Assembly (NCBI GenBank): GCA_003576975.1
Contig: QEVD01000008.1
Location: forward strand, 1-64,000
DNA length: 64,000 nucleotides
Direction of reading: 5' to 3'
Source: Candidatus Zhuqueibacterota bacterium
GTDB lineage: Bacteria > Zhuqueibacterota > Zhuqueibacteria > Zhuqueibacterales > Zhuqueibacteraceae
This document shows, in pieces, positions 41,607 to 50,327 of this stretch. Each line of letters opens with the position of its first letter. Position 1 is the stretch's first letter. The notes under the pieces were generated by a model. That model was not told the origin of the DNA. It saw nothing but the letters and a program-made list of their open reading frames with translations, and ran no database searches. A program made the translations under genes and the position numbers.

Positions 41607-41758
41607 GTTGCGCTCCTCGTTAAAACTGCTCTCTTTTGTCACGCTGATTGATTTGCCGCTGAAGATAAGAATTTTATACCCAAAATCAACATGATTGATT
41701 GATAATCACGCTTCATCTCGGCTGTAGTTTTCATCACCGGTCTGTAATAATTTCACCC

Positions 41759-44700
41759 ATGGCGCAAAATATTAATCACCAGTTCACCAAACCCGTCATC
41801 TTCCTCGCCTTTGCGCAAGATCGCGTCGAAGGCGGCGCGTATTTGCGCAATCTGCCTATCGAACAGGACGGTATCCGCAAGGCGTTGCAAAAAGCGCGGC
41901 AGGCCGGGCTATGTGAAGTGGTCGAGCGATCAAACACAACTGTTGAAAACATTCTCGATGTGTTTCAGGAATATCAGGATCGCATCGCCGTTTTTCATTA
42001 CGGCGGCCATGCCGACAGCTACGAGCTTTTGCTGGAGTCGTTGAGCGGCGAACACGCGACGGCGCACAGCGAAGGCCTGGTTTCATTTCTTGCCAGGCAA
42101 AAAGGTCTGCAACTCATTTTCTTGAACGGCTGCTGCTCGCAGCAGCAAGCGCTGGATTTGATCGAAGCGGGATTGCCGGCCGTGGTCGGCACTTCGCAAA
42201 AGATCGACGACGGCGTTGCCACCAAGTTGTCGGTGCGTTTCTATCAAGGCTTGGCCGCCGGGCTTGGGATTGATCGCGCGTGGGTTGAGGCGATTGATCA
42301 AGTCAAAATCGAAAAGGGCGCCGGCAATGTTCGCGGCATGCATGGGCAGGGCCTGGAGGAGGCCTCCGATCGTTTTCCGTGGGAAATTTATTACCGCCAG
42401 GGCGCGGAACAGATCAAAGAATGGAATCTGCCCGAGGCCGTGGGCAATCCTCTTTTTGGTTTGCCGGAGATTCCGAAAATCCATGATCTGCCGGAATCGC
42501 CGTTTCTGTTTTTGCGGCGCTATGAACGGCCGCATGCGGAAATCTTTTTTGGACGTTCTTATTATGTCCGCGCGTTGTGCAATCGCGTCAACGATCCTCA
42601 TGCTGACCCCCTCATCCTGCTTTACGGCCAATCGGGCGTGGGCAAATCTTCCTTGTTGGAAGCGGGACTCTATCCGCGTTTGGAAACGGATTACACCGTG
42701 ATCTACGCGCGGCGCCATGCACAAAAGGGATTGAGTCACACGCTGGGCGCAGCGCTGCAGCGCGAGCTGGCGAAGATTCCCAAAGATCAGCTTGCGCCGG
42801 CAACGGAGTCAACCGGGCTTGCGTTGCCGCAGGAAAATGGTGAAACGCAAACGCCATCAACCGAAGCTGCTGAAGCCCAGCCCGGCCAGGTTGTCGAAAA
42901 AATCATTCAGCAACTTGAAGCCACGGCCGCAACCTCGCCGGCGCCGGTAAAGCAGGAAATCGAGGAGTTCATTGCGCGTTTGCGGGTCTTCACAACGGAC
43001 GCGCAGGCGCAAAAGACTTTGATGACGCCATTATCCGAAGAAGCCGGACAGGATACCGCGGTGCTGATTGACGAGGATATTCTGACCTTCCTGGAAAAGT
43101 GGCTGGTGATCGAGGCGCACACCAACAAGCCGCTGCTCGTGATTCTCGATCAAATGGAAGAACATTTTACCCGGCCCAATCCGAATCTTCCCGACGAATT
43201 GGATGATTTTATGCTGGCGCTGCGCATCATTTTCAGCTCGCCGGCGCTCCGTCCCAAAGGCAAAGTGATTTTGAGTTACCGCAAAGAGTATCATGCCGAA
43301 ATCGAGGCGCGCTTTCGCACGTTTTTGCTGCCGCGCTCCACCGTGTTTCTGGAAACGCTCACTCGCAAGGATATTCTCGATATCTTTCGCGGCGTGACGC
43401 AAACACCGGCGTTGCAGAAGCGCTACCATCTCACCGTCGATGAGGAGCTGCCGGTCATGATTGCCGACGATCTCTTGGAAGATAAGGACTCGCCGGTGGC
43501 GCCTGTGCTGCAAATCGTGCTGACCAAGTTGTGGAATGCCGCCGGCAAGGAGAATGCTGAAGCGCCGCATTTTGCCGCGGCGCAGTATCAGCAGCTCAAA
43601 AAAGACGGCATCGCCATGGGGGAGTTTTTCGAGCAGCAGATGAAGGAATTGCGCAACTGGCAGCAGGAGACCGTCGATTCCGGCTTGGCGTTGGACTTTC
43701 TCTATTTTCACACCTCCAGCCACGGCGCTGCCGATAACCGCACGCTGGAGGCGTTGCGCCGGACCTATGAGCATCGCCAGGAAACCATTAATGCGTTGGT
43801 CGCCAAGTGCAAAGAGCTTTATTTGTTGACGGACTCGCAACAAAGCCAGGAGTCCACCAGCTTGACGCACGATACGCTGGCTTCTGAAGTCATCAAGCAA
43901 TACAACACTTCCGACAAACCCGGGCAGCGCGCCTCACGCATCTTGGGCAGCAAGATGCGGGAATTCCGCGAGAACGATGACAGCATTTGGCTCGACGAAA
44001 TGGATCTGCAAATCGTCGAGCAGGGTTTGCCCGGCATGCGTGAGCTATCGCCCAACGAGAAGAAGCTGCTCGACCTCAGCCGCCGCCGCCGCGAAGAGCT
44101 TGAGCGTGAGCGCCGGCGTAATCGGCAGATTCGCAGAATTCTGGTGGCCGCCATTGCCCTCTTCGCCGGCTTTGCGGTGTGGCAGTGGCGTGAAAGCGTG
44201 ATGCAAAAAAAACGCGCCGAGTTTCAAGCCGCGGTTGCGCAAAGCAATTTGCTCGCTAAAGAAGCCGACGAGATGTTTCAAAACGACCGCACGCCAGCGC
44301 TGCGTCTGGCCGAAGCCGCTTATCAATTGAATCCCACCACTTCCGCAGAAAAGGCTTTGTTGAAGATATTTTATCAAACCCGCTTCGAGCAGCGGCAATT
44401 TTACGCGAGCCGCTTGCCGCACGGCAGCGAAGTGACCACAGCGGTTTTCTCACCTGACGGCAGCAAAATCCTGACGACTTGCCTTGATGATACGGCCCGG
44501 CTTTGGTTGAAGAACGGCGCGTTGCTGGTGAACTTTCCGCACGAGTATGAGGTCAACTCCGCCATCTTTTCACCGGATGGCAATGAAATCCTCACGGCCT
44601 CAGATGATGCCACGGCGCGTTTATGGTTGGTGAACGGCGACAGCGTGAGAACTTATCAGCACACCAACAATGTGAACACCATCCGCTTTTCACGCGAGGG

Positions 44701-46402
44701 CACACAAATACTCACAGCTTGTGATGATGATTCGGTTCGGCTCTGGTCCAAGTCCGGTAATTTGATTGCAGCCTTTCGGCACCAGGGCGCAGTGCTTTCA
44801 GCGGATTTCTCCAACGATGAAGCCTGGATTCTTTCGGCGTCGAGCGATAACACCGCCCGGCGCTGGTCAATCAACGACGGCACCGCTATAACGTTTCAGC
44901 ATCGAGGTCCGGTTTACATGGCCGTGAGTTCTTCCGACGACGCATTCGTTCTCACGGTTTCGGATGATGATACCGCGAGGTTGTGGTCGGCAAACGGCAA
45001 CCTCCAGAAAAAATTTCCACACGATGGGGCGGTTAAATCTGCCCTGTTTCTATCGGATAAGGATGAGATTCTCACCGCCTCCGACGATGGCACTGCGAGA
45101 ATATGGTCAACAAATGGAGATTTGCGAAAGACACTCGATCATCGCGCCCCGGTGTTCTCGGCGATGAGTTCGCAAGACGGCAGCCGCATTGTCACCGCCT
45201 CGCGCGACAGCACTGCCAAGCTTTGGTCGAAGGAAGGTGAATTGCTCATGACGCTGCAACACGGCGGTGCTGTCAACGCAGCAGCATTTTTTGAGGATGA
45301 ACCCTACATTCTCACGGCCTCGCACGATCACACCGCGCGCTTGTGGCCTGCCGATGAAACTGATTTGATCACGTTGCAACACGAAGGAGAAGTCAACACC
45401 GCGGTTTTCTCATCATCAGGAGATTTTCTTCTGACCGCTTCGGGTGATTTCAGTGCACGCCTGTGGTCGGCTGAAGGAGTATTGCAGGCGACTCTCTCAC
45501 ATGACGGCGAAGTTCTCACCGCGATTTTTTCGCCAGATGGAGGTTCGATTCTCACCGCCTCGCGCGACAAAACTGCGCGCCTGTGGTCGTTGCAAGGAAG
45601 CATGTTGGCATCGTTTCAGCACGACAGCACGGTTTATGCCGCCGTGTTCTCGCCGGACGGCAATCAAATTCTCACCGCCTCGTTGGAGGGCAAAGCACGA
45701 TTGTGGTTGATTGATCGCGGATTATTGACGACTTTCCCGCATCGTGGCCCGGTTTATTCCGTCGCTTTCTCTCCCGCCCCGGCGGGACGTCAAATTCTAA
45801 CCGCCTCGGATGATTCCACTGCGCGGCTGTGGTCGTTGGAAGGCAAAGAGATCACAACCTTTCAGCATGAGGGAGAGGTTTGGGCCGCGCAATTCTCGCC
45901 TGATGGGCGCCGGGTTTTGACCGCTTCCGAAGATAACACGGCGCGGCTGTGGTCCCTCGATGGCAAACTTTTGGCGGCGTTGCCACATGAAGGCCGCGTT
46001 TGGAAAATTGCATTTTCTCCTAGCGGCAATCAAATTCTCGCCGCTTCGTGGGACAACACTGCCCGGCTGTGGTCAACCGAAGGCAAATTGATCGCGACTT
46101 ACCCGCACGAAGGGTGGCTGTATTCCGCGCGTTTTTCATCAGATGGCCGTCATATTCTTACAGCTTCGGATGATGTTACCGCCAGGTTGTGGTCAATCAC
46201 CGGCGACACGCTGATGACGTTTCTACAGGAAGGCCCGGTCTACTTTGCCGTTTTCTCGAACGACGGCCGGCAAATCATTACCGCTTCCGCAGATACTCAG
46301 GCTCGGCTGTGGCAAACCCCGGCGGGGATCGCCACGTGGCTCAAAACGGCGGAGGTTTATCGGTTGCCCGAACTTGAAAGACAGAAGTATGAAATTGAAT
46401 GA
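41759..46402 (+). CDS. CHAT-STAND NTPase-TM-WD40 protein (1547 aa)
   Basis: Four parts are visible. Residues 1-230 are a CHAT caspase-like domain with His-84 (HYGGHADS) and Cys-125/126 (FLNGCCSQQ). Residues about 260-620 are an nSTAND-type P-loop NTPase: Walker A GQSGVGKSS at 290 and Walker B LLVILDQMEE near Asp-464. A basic stretch (RRREELERERRRNRQ) and one membrane helix (ILVAAIALFAGFAVWQW, about 794-811) follow. Residues about 889-1515 are 16 WD40 repeats of about 40 residues, each ending near ILTASDDTARLWS. With this topology the protease and NTPase are cytoplasmic and the propellers may be periplasmic, if the helix really inserts. A later start than the frame's 41699 fits the paralogues. 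It is likely a sensor-effector protein of a conflict system. Confidence 0.88.
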   Translation: MAQNINHQFTKPVIFLAFAQDRVEGGAYLRNLPIEQDGIRKALQKARQAGLCEVVERSNTTVENILDVFQEYQDRIAVFHYGGHADSYELLLESLSGEHATAHSEGLVSFLARQKGLQLIFLNGCCSQQQALDLIEAGLPAVVGTSQKIDDGVATKLSVRFYQGLAAGLGIDRAWVEAIDQVKIEKGAGNVRGMHGQGLEEASDRFPWEIYYRQGAEQIKEWNLPEAVGNPLFGLPEIPKIHDLPESPFLFLRRYERPHAEIFFGRSYYVRALCNRVNDPHADPLILLYGQSGVGKSSLLEAGLYPRLETDYTVIYARRHAQKGLSHTLGAALQRELAKIPKDQLAPATESTGLALPQENGETQTPSTEAAEAQPGQVVEKIIQQLEATAATSPAPVKQEIEEFIARLRVFTTDAQAQKTLMTPLSEEAGQDTAVLIDEDILTFLEKWLVIEAHTNKPLLVILDQMEEHFTRPNPNLPDELDDFMLALRIIFSSPALRPKGKVILSYRKEYHAEIEARFRTFLLPRSTVFLETLTRKDILDIFRGVTQTPALQKRYHLTVDEELPVMIADDLLEDKDSPVAPVLQIVLTKLWNAAGKENAEAPHFAAAQYQQLKKDGIAMGEFFEQQMKELRNWQQETVDSGLALDFLYFHTSSHGAADNRTLEALRRTYEHRQETINALVAKCKELYLLTDSQQSQESTSLTHDTLASEVIKQYNTSDKPGQRASRILGSKMREFRENDDSIWLDEMDLQIVEQGLPGMRELSPNEKKLLDLSRRRREELERERRRNRQIRRILVAAIALFAGFAVWQWRESVMQKKRAEFQAAVAQSNLLAKEADEMFQNDRTPALRLAEAAYQLNPTTSAEKALLKIFYQTRFEQRQFYASRLPHGSEVTTAVFSPDGSKILTTCLDDTARLWLKNGALLVNFPHEYEVNSAIFSPDGNEILTASDDATARLWLVNGDSVRTYQHTNNVNTIRFSREGTQILTACDDDSVRLWSKSGNLIAAFRHQGAVLSADFSNDEAWILSASSDNTARRWSINDGTAITFQHRGPVYMAVSSSDDAFVLTVSDDDTARLWSANGNLQKKFPHDGAVKSALFLSDKDEILTASDDGTARIWSTNGDLRKTLDHRAPVFSAMSSQDGSRIVTASRDSTAKLWSKEGELLMTLQHGGAVNAAAFFEDEPYILTASHDHTARLWPADETDLITLQHEGEVNTAVFSSSGDFLLTASGDFSARLWSAEGVLQATLSHDGEVLTAIFSPDGGSILTASRDKTARLWSLQGSMLASFQHDSTVYAAVFSPDGNQILTASLEGKARLWLIDRGLLTTFPHRGPVYSVAFSPAPAGRQILTASDDSTARLWSLEGKEITTFQHEGEVWAAQFSPDGRRVLTASEDNTARLWSLDGKLLAALPHEGRVWKIAFSPSGNQILAASWDNTARLWSTEGKLIATYPHEGWLYSARFSSDGRHILTASDDVTARLWSITGDTLMTFLQEGPVYFAVFSNDGRQIITASADTQARLWQTPAGIATWLKTAEVYRLPELERQKYEIE

Positions 46403-46489
46403 AAAATTTGTTCACAGAAGCCGCAACTGGCTCCAAATTGTCTTGGCTAGTTGTCTGTTACCTTGAAAAGTTTGTCCGTCACCACTGTC

Positions 46490-46507
46490 ATCCCGCCCCA
46501 GCGGGAT
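46490..46507. terminator. Stem-loop downstream of the CHAT-WD40 gene
   Basis: A 7-bp perfect stem, ATCCCGC / GCGGGAT, with the loop CCCA lies about 90 bases after the stop codon. Only CTT follows on the plus strand, so it is a weak terminator candidate. It could equally be a decayed repeat, since the spacer from 46403 to 46748 also holds a REP-like unit. Confidence 0.35.
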
Positions 46508-46611
46508 CTTGTGAAGATTTGAGCGCGGCGCCGGGTATCTCACAGGATTCTTTCTGAATGACGCTCGGAATCACTTGTGCAAATCAAGGCAATAAATCAA
46601 TAGGTAAAGGC

Positions 46612-46712
46612 GAAAACGCCGAAGGCGTTCAACACCAAAGCCGAGGGTAGCGCGCAGCGCACCCTCGGAAATGATATCGACAATCAAGAACCCTGACAGG
46701 GTTCGACAAGAG
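46612..46712. repeat. REP-like half unit, single copy
   Basis: The unit reads AACGCCGAAGGCGTTCAAC, then CACCAAAG, a variable hairpin (CCGAGGGT pairing with ACCCTCGG, inner arms GCGC/GCGC), and ends with AACCCTGACAGGGTTCGAC. It has the same order as the right halves of the two units at 47485 and 48246, but the stem bases of the variable hairpin differ in both arms. It ends 37 bases before the next gene's ATG. Confidence 0.7.
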
Positions 46713-46748
46713 TTATCAAACAGAGACAATCATTTACGGAGGTAAGCC

Positions 46749-47474
46749 ATGAAATCATTTATATCTGTAACAGTCACACGAATGTTTGGGCTGGCGATCT
46801 GGTGTGCGATCATGTTTTGCAACAGCACCGCCGAGGCGCAATTCAAGCGCGAGCATCTCTACAAGCTGCGCGACGGCAACCGCTTCGAGGGCATCAAAAC
46901 CAAAAAATGGAAACCGGTATCGGGAACAGTGGCGTTGACTTCTCTCGTACTCAGCGAAGGCCAGTCTGCGCCGGCCAATGCCTCGGGAGACAACGTCTCT
47001 GTCCACTTTTTTTCAACCGCAACCAGCGACATCAAACTTTCCATTTTCAATCTGGAAAAAGAATATTTCATGGAGCCGAGAAATCCGTCCTTCAACAAGG
47101 ATTGGAACGCCTTTTCTTGGCCCGCAAAAATTTTAAGTGAAATCAATTTGCCGGCCGGCCAGCTCGACGGCATCGCCTCGGCGCGCAAAGGCACGCAGGA
47201 TATTTACTTCCCCATTTGCTTTCACAAACCCGATGCCGCGAGCAAAAAACTGGTTGCCAAAGCCAAGCTGGTTCCCGACAAGAACATGACGGTGACGGTA
47301 TCGCTCTTTTCCGCTGATCCCAACAAACCGGACAAGGTTTGGGAAGATCAGAAACTCACCTCCGACGCGCCGTTTGCGGTGGAATGGCCGGTTGCCGCGA
47401 ATCAGAAAACCCTCCTTCTGAAAGTGAAAGAGCACGGCGGCCGGGAGTTTAGTTATAATATTCATCTGTTCTGA
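46749..47474 (+). CDS. Secreted protein of unknown function (241 aa)
   Basis: The N-terminal 31 residues form a signal peptide (VTRMFGLAIWCAIMFCNSTAEAQ). The mature part has no domain that I recognise. It is beta-rich and includes GDNVSVHFFSTATSDIKLSIF, CFHKPDAASKKLVAKAKLV and SDAPFAVEWPVAANQKTLL, which suggests one or two beta-sandwich modules. It lacks a lipobox and the type IX sorting tail of the large proteins further right, so it would be periplasmic. A GGAGG ribosome-binding site precedes the ATG by 7 bases. It lies between two REP-like repeats and may belong to the island operon with the trypsin-like gene. Confidence 0.7.
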   Translation: MKSFISVTVTRMFGLAIWCAIMFCNSTAEAQFKREHLYKLRDGNRFEGIKTKKWKPVSGTVALTSLVLSEGQSAPANASGDNVSVHFFSTATSDIKLSIFNLEKEYFMEPRNPSFNKDWNAFSWPAKILSEINLPAGQLDGIASARKGTQDIYFPICFHKPDAASKKLVAKAKLVPDKNMTVTVSLFSADPNKPDKVWEDQKLTSDAPFAVEWPVAANQKTLLLKVKEHGGREFSYNIHLF

Positions 47475-47484
47475 TCGATTGAGT

Positions 47485-47772
47485 GGAACCCCACACGAGG
47501 GGGTTATGCACGATTGTTTGATTCGAAACCCGAGGTGCAGACACCCTGGGCTGCGGTGTGAAACGCCTTCGGCATATGGCCGGTGCTGCAGCGAAATAAT
47601 GGCTCACGTAGATTATCATGTTGATCAACGTAATGCCGCCATCGGGATTTGGCAAACTTTCTTCTTGCTCCAATACGCCGAAGGCGTTCAACATCAAAGC
47701 CGATGGTTGCGCACCACGCAACCATCGGAAAAGATGAAAACGAAGACGAACCCTGAAAGGGTTCGACAGGAG
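47485..47772. repeat. REP-like inverted pair upstream of the transposase
   Basis: Two half units in opposite orientation with a spacer of about 95 bases. The left half has an imperfect hairpin (CCCGAGGTG/CACCCTGGG) then GTGTGAAACGCCTTCGGC. The right half has ACGCCGAAGGCGTT, a perfect hairpin (CGATGGTTGCG / CGCAACCATCG, loop CACCA) and AACCCTGAAAGGGTTCGAC. The pair lies immediately before the transposase ATG and is homologous along its length to the pair at 48246-48533. Confidence 0.75.
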
Positions 47773-47780
47773 GGGAGACT

Positions 47781-48218
47781 ATGCCGCAATCGCTCGTCCA
47801 GGTTTATTTACATATCGTGTTTTCCACCAAGCAGCGCCGTCCTTATTTGAATGATCCGGCCTTGCGGGAAAAATTATACGGTTATATGGCCGGCATTTGC
47901 AAAAATCTCCAATGTCCGGCGCTGAAAATAGGTGGAATTGAAGATCATACACATCTTTTGACGCGCCACTCGAAGACACAGGCGATATCGGATTTCATGC
48001 GCGAGTTGAAACGTTCCTCCTCGGCGTGGCTCAAAACGCAAAGCCGGGAGTTGTCATCTTTCCATTGGCAGGATGGCTATGGGGCATTTTCAATCAGCCC
48101 ATCGCATGTGGAGGAGGTTGAGGCTTATATCATCAATCAGAAAAAACACCATCAAAAAGAGTCGTTTCAAGATGAATTCCGGCGGCTATGCAAAAAAATA
48201 TGGCGTCGAAATCGATGA
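47781..48218 (+). CDS. REP-associated IS200-like transposase (RAYT), frameshifted near its 3' end
   Basis: The 145-residue product resembles the Y1 single-strand transposase family TnpA(REP). It starts SLVQVYLHIVFSTKQRRPYL, has the HUH-type metal site in EDHTHLL, and contains the helix with the likely nucleophilic Tyr in VEAYIINQKKHHQKESFQDEF. The usual ending follows in another frame: skipping one A in the seven-A run at 48192-48198 gives KYGVEIDERYVWD and a stop at 48237. The gene is thus either recently broken, a sequencing error, or expressed through slippage. It lies between two inverted pairs of REP-like repeats, its probable substrates. Confidence 0.82.
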   Translation: MPQSLVQVYLHIVFSTKQRRPYLNDPALREKLYGYMAGICKNLQCPALKIGGIEDHTHLLTRHSKTQAISDFMRELKRSSSAWLKTQSRELSSFHWQDGYGAFSISPSHVEEVEAYIINQKKHHQKESFQDEFRRLCKKIWRRNR

Positions 48219-48245
48219 ACGATATGTTTGGGATTGATCGAGTTT

Positions 48246-48533
48246 GTGTCGAACCCCGGTTGGGGTTCGACATGGTTGTATGATTCGAAACCCAGGGTGC
48301 AGGCACCCTGGGCTGCGGTGTGAAACGCCTTCGGCGTAACGTGCTGCGCTCGTTGAGAAATATTGGGTCACGCCGTTTTTATGTTGACCAAGGCGAAGCG
48401 CCATCGGAGTTTGGTATACTTTCTCCTTACCCGAAAACGCCGAAGGCGTTCAACACCAAAGTCGATGGTTGCGCACCACGCAACCATCGGATTCAAGATA
48501 GACATTGATGAACCCTGAAGGGTTCGACAAGAG
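48246..48533. repeat. REP-like inverted pair downstream of the transposase
   Basis: The left half has a perfect hairpin GTCGAACCCC / GGGGTTCGAC at 48248-48271, a second perfect hairpin CCCAGGGTGC / GCACCCTGGG at 48291-48312, then AAACGCCTTCGGCGT. The right half (inverted) has AACGCCGAAGGCGTT at 48436-48450, the hairpin CGATGGTTGCG / CGCAACCATCG at 48463-48489, and AACCCTGAAGGGTTCGAC. It spans nearly the whole spacer between the transposase stop and the trypsin-like gene. Confidence 0.78.
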
Positions 48534-48555
48534 CTCACAAACGAGGAGAAAGGCC

Positions 48556-50004: not shown

Positions 50005-50070
50005 GGCGAGGCGGTATTCTTGCAAACCTTAACCAAAAAGATCGCCAGCGGATTGAAACAACCCAATTCA

Positions 50071-50209
50071 TTAAGGATTGTCGATTAAATAACTTGCCCA
50101 AATCTCAAACCGCGAATGCACGCCAATAAACGCGAATTTTAAAACTAGCGAATATTCGCGTTTATTAGCGGTTCCCCAAATGAGTAAGTTATTTAAATGG
50201 CGTTCCTAA
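50071..50209. repeat. Dispersed hairpin element, copy 2 (complete)
   Basis: About 139 bases with long imperfect inverted arms. The left end reads TTAAGGATTG-TCGATTAAATAACTT and the right end is its near reverse complement (AAGTTATTTAAATGGCG-TTCCTAA). Inner inverted segments are AAACGCGAAT and ATTCGCGTTT. It would fold into a single hairpin of about 60 bp. A second, truncated copy is at 30319-30425. No coding capacity was seen, so it looks like a miniature inverted-repeat element or a structured intergenic repeat. Confidence 0.65.
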
Positions 50210-50327
50210 ACCGCTTTTGCATCTGCTTTGTTGTTCCCGAAATCTCGGAACGAGTTCAATCTGTTTGAAGCCGTTCGGTTTTTCGCTAAAACTCCATTTG
50301 CAATGGACTGATACGGAGTGAATTGAA

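Follow-up and report, generated by a model that had tools for sequence, protein, structure and literature searches.

A candidate REPtron-like locus with an IS200-like Y1 transposase of predicted subclass 1.2 in an uncultured KSB1-type bacterium

The window, i.e., the whole stretch of DNA that was analyzed (64,000 nt of contig QEVD01000008.1 in assembly GCA_003576975.1, from an uncultured KSB1-type bacterium), carries at positions 46612 to 48535 five half units of ∼100 nt in alternating orientation, two inverted pairs of which flank the transposase gene tnpA (Table 1). This locus is probably (at about 70%, in our estimate) a REPtron-like system run by a class 1, IS200-like Y1 transposase of subclass 1.2. 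The current analysis revealed that the units are dispersed and come in two alternating subtypes, that genes of this class are paired with such repeats across phyla, and that the locus is present in the window's genome and missing from two congeners.

The locus and its transposase

The five half units are located where the original prediction had placed them and find independent support in further units, both in the rest of the genome and in other genomes; tnpA indeed lies between two inverted pairs, D-B and E-C. The segments D-linker-B and E-linker-C form a direct duplication of ∼277 bp (80% identity) with tnpA in between. Hairpin 2 has the sequence CCGAGGGT or CCGATGGTTGCG in the Q subtype (A, B, and C) and CCCAGGGTG in the P subtype (D and E), and start codons are found 6 to 34 nt 3' of the ends of units A, B, and C. 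The scores in Table 1 come from R1, a covariance model built from 18 units of the window's genome (alignment A1), and hold by construction, because all five window units are among these 18 training rows. The strand given for a half unit is the one on which hairpin 1 precedes the other two hairpins.

Table 1. Features of the tnpA locus in the window (hp2, hairpin 2; R1, covariance model score)
Feature	Positions	Strand	Subtype	hp2	R1 (bits)	Remarks
Half unit A	46612..46714	+	Q	CCGAGGGT	104.8	5' of the 241-aa gene
241-aa gene	46749..47474	+				Flanked by units A and D; host gene, with synteny conserved in unit-free congeners
Half unit D	47476..47577	-	P	CCCAGGGTG	62.2	Decayed
D-B linker	47578..47672	.				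Part of the D-linker-B duplicate
Half unit B	47673..47774	+	Q	CCGATGGTTGCG	97.2	Stops 6 nt 5' of the tnpA start codon
tnpA	47781..48218	+				Y1 (HuH) transposase, 145 aa; DHTH / WQ / YIINQKKHH; frameshifted C terminus
Half unit E	48241..48339	-	P		83.2	
E-C linker	48340..48434	.				Part of the E-linker-C duplicate
Half unit C	48435..48535	+	Q		89.2	5' of the trypsin-like gene

The product of the 241-aa gene has no match in Pfam. Further upstream, positions 41699-46402 encode a 1,567-aa protein that combines an nSTAND1 NTPase domain with many WD40 repeats. Two other repeats were seen in the vicinity: one just 5' of unit A (46446-46605), which occurs some 25 times in G076, a congener, and a ∼140-bp repeat at 50068-50216, with dozens of copies (about 85 to 99% identical) in the same-species assembly G075.

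The congeners G076 and G077 have the same gene order as the window (WD40 protein, 241-aa gene, trypsin-like gene). The gap between the latter two genes is 326 bp in G076 and 173 bp in G077, versus about 1,080 bp in the window, and in this gene-level comparison neither tnpA nor any unit was found at the syntenic site, nor was there a unit 5' of the 241-aa gene. The whole set (A, D, B, tnpA, E, and C) would thus have been either gained in the lineage of the window or lost in the congeners; since two congeners are empty, gain appears to be the simpler reading. An empty site at the base level was also sought for two other copies. For the one on contig C542 of the window's genome, the right flank lacks synteny in the relatives, and for the one at locus L137 of G075, the flanks were not found in the window's genome.

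The tnpA product matches the Pfam family Y1_Tnp and passes the NCBIfam model for IS200/IS605 transposases (66 bits; cut-off, 55). The gene had been predicted to encode a RAYT, a label that was not supported: TnpA stays below the cut-off of the REP_Tyr_transpos model (NF047646; 29.4 bits versus 80), and its Tyr motif is Y---Q--HH rather than Y---NP. In the published classification, the former motif marks subclass 1.2 and the latter all class 2 RAYTs (PMC6006769). The motifs of TnpA are DHTH, HWQ, and YIINQKKHH, the last of which represents the Y---Q--HH pattern found in the window protein and in 42 of its 44 relatives. As in the subclass 1.2 pattern, W is followed by Q; the middle residue of the HuH motif is Thr (DHTH), the relatives have DHVH, DHIH, or DHLH, and the subclass pattern has a hydrophobic residue there. 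The enzyme is therefore predicted to be a class 1 TnpA-Y1 of subclass 1.2, an assignment made from the Tyr motif and copy number, and not a RAYT (TnpA-REP) of class 2. An AlphaFold model of TnpA, calculated from 13 sequences (pLDDT, 88), has its best matches in the IS608 and ISDra2 transposases (E value, 5e-8) and a weaker one in the E. coli RAYT-REP complex 4er8 (9e-5).

The window's genome contains three tnpA genes, the other two being 44% and 33% identical to the one in the window and flanked by different repeat families. No near-identical full copies of tnpA with defined ends were found, and there is one close copy in the window's genome. At positions 48192-48198 the gene has a run of seven A's, compared to six in a 78% identical relative (L064); the extra A puts the conserved C-terminal end YGVEIDERYVW out of frame, so that it is lost. 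This run represents either a genuine frameshift or a sequencing error. The HuH motif and the Tyr precede it, and the window copy may be inactive owing to its frameshifted C terminus.

Structure and dispersal of the units

In the window, each half unit consists of hairpin 1, a linker, hairpin 2, a spacer, and hairpin 3, in this order. Hairpin 1 is ACGCC-GAA-GGCGT, hairpin 3 is GAACCC...GGGTTC, and the linker terminates 5' of hairpin 2 in AAAG, AAAGT, or GCAG. The 15-mer AACGCCTTCGGCGTT, quoted in the original prediction, is exact in two of the five (at 46615 and 48436); the others deviate from it at one to a few positions, and D is decayed. Among 131 units from many genomes, aligned by fitting to R1 (alignment A2), 96.4% of the cells paired, compared to 78.4% in shuffled controls, and 20 of the 22 stem pairs showed changes on both sides. 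Double-changed cells numbered 453, versus 92.5 in shuffles and no more than 83 with the partner slid by 1 to 3 columns; the fit to R1 favors structure, but the margin over the slid-partner controls is nonetheless wide. Selection on structure, as originally proposed, is thus borne out, and the repeat units are a structurally selected family. The middle hairpin does keep its pairing while varying in sequence, as had been noticed; covariation is not limited to it, since all three hairpins covary in the 131 units. In hairpin 1, for example, ACGCC/GGCGT is replaced by ACCGC/GCGGT, ATCCC/GGGAT, ACACC/GGTGT, and further variants, most of them with the GAA loop.

A scan of the region against Rfam returned no family at its gathering score. 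Two weak look-alikes of CRISPR repeats scored below their gathering thresholds and were rejected. At five other loci with subclass 1.2 genes (L022, L086, L087, L088, and L092), a simpler repeat was seen that consists of a hairpin followed by ATGTTTATAG and lacks hairpin 2; it is possibly a reduced form of the three-hairpin unit.

Searches with R1 identified units in 28 of the 82 genomes of the window's phylum. The window's genome has 29 and G075 has 17, and the genome of Rhodopirellula solitaria yielded 97. Such counts are lower bounds, and the true number in the window's genome is higher, because at least seven matches there are cut by contig ends. Neither confinement of the units to this locus nor a prevalence of noncompensatory stem changes, which together would have spoken against the original prediction, was found. 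Neighboring units are inverted with respect to each other in 61 of 64 pairs, joined as '+-' in 35 and as '-+' in 26 cases. Within a locus, the median similarity is 0.81 for units of the same orientation and 0.20 for units of opposite orientation: as in BIMEs, the two orientations are two different, opposed subtypes. In R. solitaria, about twenty units of alternating orientation form an array next to tnpA. Only 12% of the unit bases fall inside open reading frames of at least 150 aa, compared to 36% in nearby controls, so the units are mostly extragenic.

Several of these features bear on the possibility that the units constitute the complex ends of an IS200-like insertion sequence, with B-tnpA-E as the autonomous element and the Q-P' pairs of 250 to 300 bp as its MITEs. 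This arrangement would account for the Q unit 5' and the P' unit 3' of tnpA, the frequent occurrence of dispersed copies as Q...P' pairs in the same outward orientation, the match of TnpA to the IS200 model, and the missing locus in congeners. We nevertheless regard it as unlikely: the window's genome has 29 units and one close tnpA, its two more distant tnpA genes come with other repeat families, pairs are joined both ways round, and long alternating arrays like that of R. solitaria resemble BIMEs rather than insertion sequences.

At L135 (contig C92 of G075) and L003 (contig C254 of the window's genome, G000), unit arrays are bracketed by a CAAAGGGCATC...GATGCCCTTTG hairpin, and a small gene pair between them resembles, by eye, a PIN-domain toxin with its antitoxin. 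An element of ∼360 bp with the ends GGTTCTATG...CATAGAACC encloses a subfamily of unit pairs. Copies with this element were recorded at L137 (411-771), L138, L140, and L012 and on contigs C655, C608, C681, C220, C11, and C492 of G000. At L137, in G075, the 8-bp direct repeat GAAATTTT is found outside both ends; these ends and the single direct repeat point to a different transposase for those copies. The outer GGTTCTATG ends were rejected as a property of all copies, being absent from the window, C133, C542, and other genomes.

The repeats might accordingly have been spread by another transposon, of a DDE-type, MITE-like kind, with at least one subfamily housed in the GGTTCTATG...CATAGAACC element. 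Although about nine copies in the window's genome share the same outer boundary and one copy has the flanking 8-bp repeat, this explanation is very improbable for the units at large: those of the window, C133, C542, C254, and other phyla lack the GGTTCTATG...CATAGAACC ends, conservation across phyla ends near hairpin 1, and the link to tnpA is left unexplained.

Pairing with subclass 1.2 genes and proposed mechanism

The comparison loci were fetched by the TnpA protein alone and not by the units. At such loci in KSB1, Gemmataceae, Chlamydiales, Verrucomicrobia, and Rhodopirellula, R1 units adjoin tnpA, typically with one unit in the orientation of tnpA 5' of the gene and an inverted unit 3' of it. 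In a model-free test, the 300 nt upstream of the gene were compared with the reverse complement of the 300 nt downstream, with mismatched pairs as the control. The inverted flanks matched above the 95th percentile of mismatched pairs in 28 of 38 loci and above the 99th percentile in 23 of 38, in several phyla. The sampled loci come from outside the Cyanobacteria.

Hairpins identified de novo within 250 nt of 42 subclass 1.2 tnpA genes had AG at the 5' foot in 37 cases, compared to 7.2 expected, with p-values that are optimistic because the loci are related. Specific feet were ATAG (8 versus 0.5 expected) and GTAG (6 versus 0.4). Among the R1 units, an NNAG foot was present in 115 of 131, a feature that is partly built into the model; the hairpins identified de novo provide the cleaner test. 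The commonest foot in that set was AAAG (38 of 131), and GTAG was found in 8 of 131. The left guide of IS608 is AAAG (PMC5934647), and the foot tetranucleotide of REPs is GTAG (PMC8266576).

Within the phylum, units were present in all six genomes with a close TnpA and in 22 of the 76 others (p = 0.001, uncorrected for kinship). The presence of any TnpA relative predicted units weakly (20 of 28 versus 26 of 54; p = 0.037, likewise uncorrected); the test with close homologues is the stronger one. Among the genomes compared, mostly metagenome assemblies, eight carry units with no TnpA relative detected, and in G075, which has units, a close TnpA was not detected. Similarity of the proteins is correlated with that of their upstream flanks (Mantel correlation, 0.27; p = 0.0005), in part through plain common descent.

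The matching flanks at tnpA across phyla also weigh against the proposal that the units act at the RNA level, as regulators or terminators of the adjacent genes, and that they accompany tnpA by coincidence. Each of the three Q units is located shortly upstream of a start codon, and some stems resemble terminators when read on the minus strand; however, congeners carry these genes without any units, the units alternate in orientation, arrays can comprise ∼20 units, and no Rfam family reaches its gathering score. We consider this explanation very improbable.

In the REPtron-like reading, the half units are likely the cognate substrates of TnpA, and their mobility would be due to this subclass 1.2 enzyme. 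By analogy with IS608 and TnpA-REP (PMC5934647, PMC8266576), half units that become single-stranded on the lagging strand would fold, and TnpA would bind the folded strand by recognizing hairpin 2. The NNAG at the foot of this hairpin (AAAG, ATAG, or GTAG) would be the guide that selects the cleavage site, and Tyr116 together with the HuH residues H56 and H58 would carry out the cut. Inverted pairs, similar to REPINs or BIMEs, could then move in trans, with tnpA itself staying at low copy number. Hairpins 1 and 3 might, as a guess, bracket the recognition hairpin for binding of a dimer or orient the two ends.

A broader proposal, which we put forward tentatively and at somewhat less than even odds, is that the transposases of subclass 1.2 as a whole drive a REP system that evolved separately and combines an IS200-type enzyme with tripartite half units carrying an NNAG guide. 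Such a system would stand, as a living intermediate, between IS200/IS605 elements and REPtrons; it would occur in many phyla and have escaped notice because searches for the canonical REP pattern do not capture its repeats. The mechanism of REP dissemination is still described as unknown (PMC8266576), and the origin of REPs from IS200-type elements and their spread is an open question that these loci touch upon. If true, the proposal would make guide-directed cutting of REP-like hairpins testable in a second class of enzymes and would account for the many unannotated repeats of Planctomycetes, Verrucomicrobia, KSB1, and other groups; the loci supply ready substrates for an in vitro cleavage assay.

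Comparison with known systems

Subclass 1.2 has been described as a class 1 branch without REPs and without insertion sequence behavior, found mainly in Cyanobacteria and Bacteroidetes (Quentin 2018, PMC6006769). Its role has been described as unknown. The genes analyzed here share with it the DHxH, WQ, and YI-NQ--HH motifs, the size of ∼150 aa, the low copy number, and the low identity between copies. They differ in having REP-like flanks (28 of 38 loci), the published "no REP" being a descriptive rather than a defining feature, and in being found in KSB1, Planctomycetes, Verrucomicrobia, Chlamydiae, and other groups. No previous description of repeats next to subclass 1.2 genes was found in the open-access literature, and one may exist elsewhere.

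With the IS200/IS605 elements IS608 and ISDra2, the system shares the fold, the catalytic motifs, and hairpin ends with a 5'-foot tetranucleotide guide. In contrast to those elements, neither near-identical copies of tnpA nor a single defined left and right end were found, and the units far outnumber tnpA. The GTAG-tagged REP superfamily comprises end-tagged palindromes in inverted dimers, often heterodimers, from several phyla (PMC3733652). The units are likewise tagged palindromes in inverted, often hetero-, dimers from several phyla, but they carry NNAG as the tag, located at the foot of the second of their three hairpins, and the gene they flank does not encode a RAYT.

The designation of the repeats as REP-like holds: similarly to REPs, they are dispersed (29 to 97 copies), biased toward extragenic regions, and arranged in inverted pairs. 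They are not canonical REPs in size or hairpin number, with half units of ∼100 nt and three hairpins instead of 20 to 50 nt and one hairpin (PMC8266576), and with an NNAG foot (AAAG, ATAG, and some GTAG) where REPs have a fixed GTAG, or GT[AG]G. The proposed match to a REPtron stands with respect to layout, in that the locus looks and probably works alike, and does not extend to membership in the RAYT/REP family as defined. In REPtrons with class 2 RAYTs, such as that of E. coli (subclass 2.2), as here, a single low-copy HuH-Tyr gene lies between inverted pairs of dispersed palindromic repeats, two repeat subtypes alternate in inverted orientation (the opposed Y and Z2 REPs in E. coli; PMC6006769), each tnpA has its own repeat family, and the tetranucleotide at the hairpin foot ends in AG. 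Repeats on both sides of tnpA, as in a REPtron, are found in the window and in those 28 of the 38 loci; the enzyme between them appears to belong to class 1 (Y---Q--HH), unlike the class 2 RAYTs (Y---NP).
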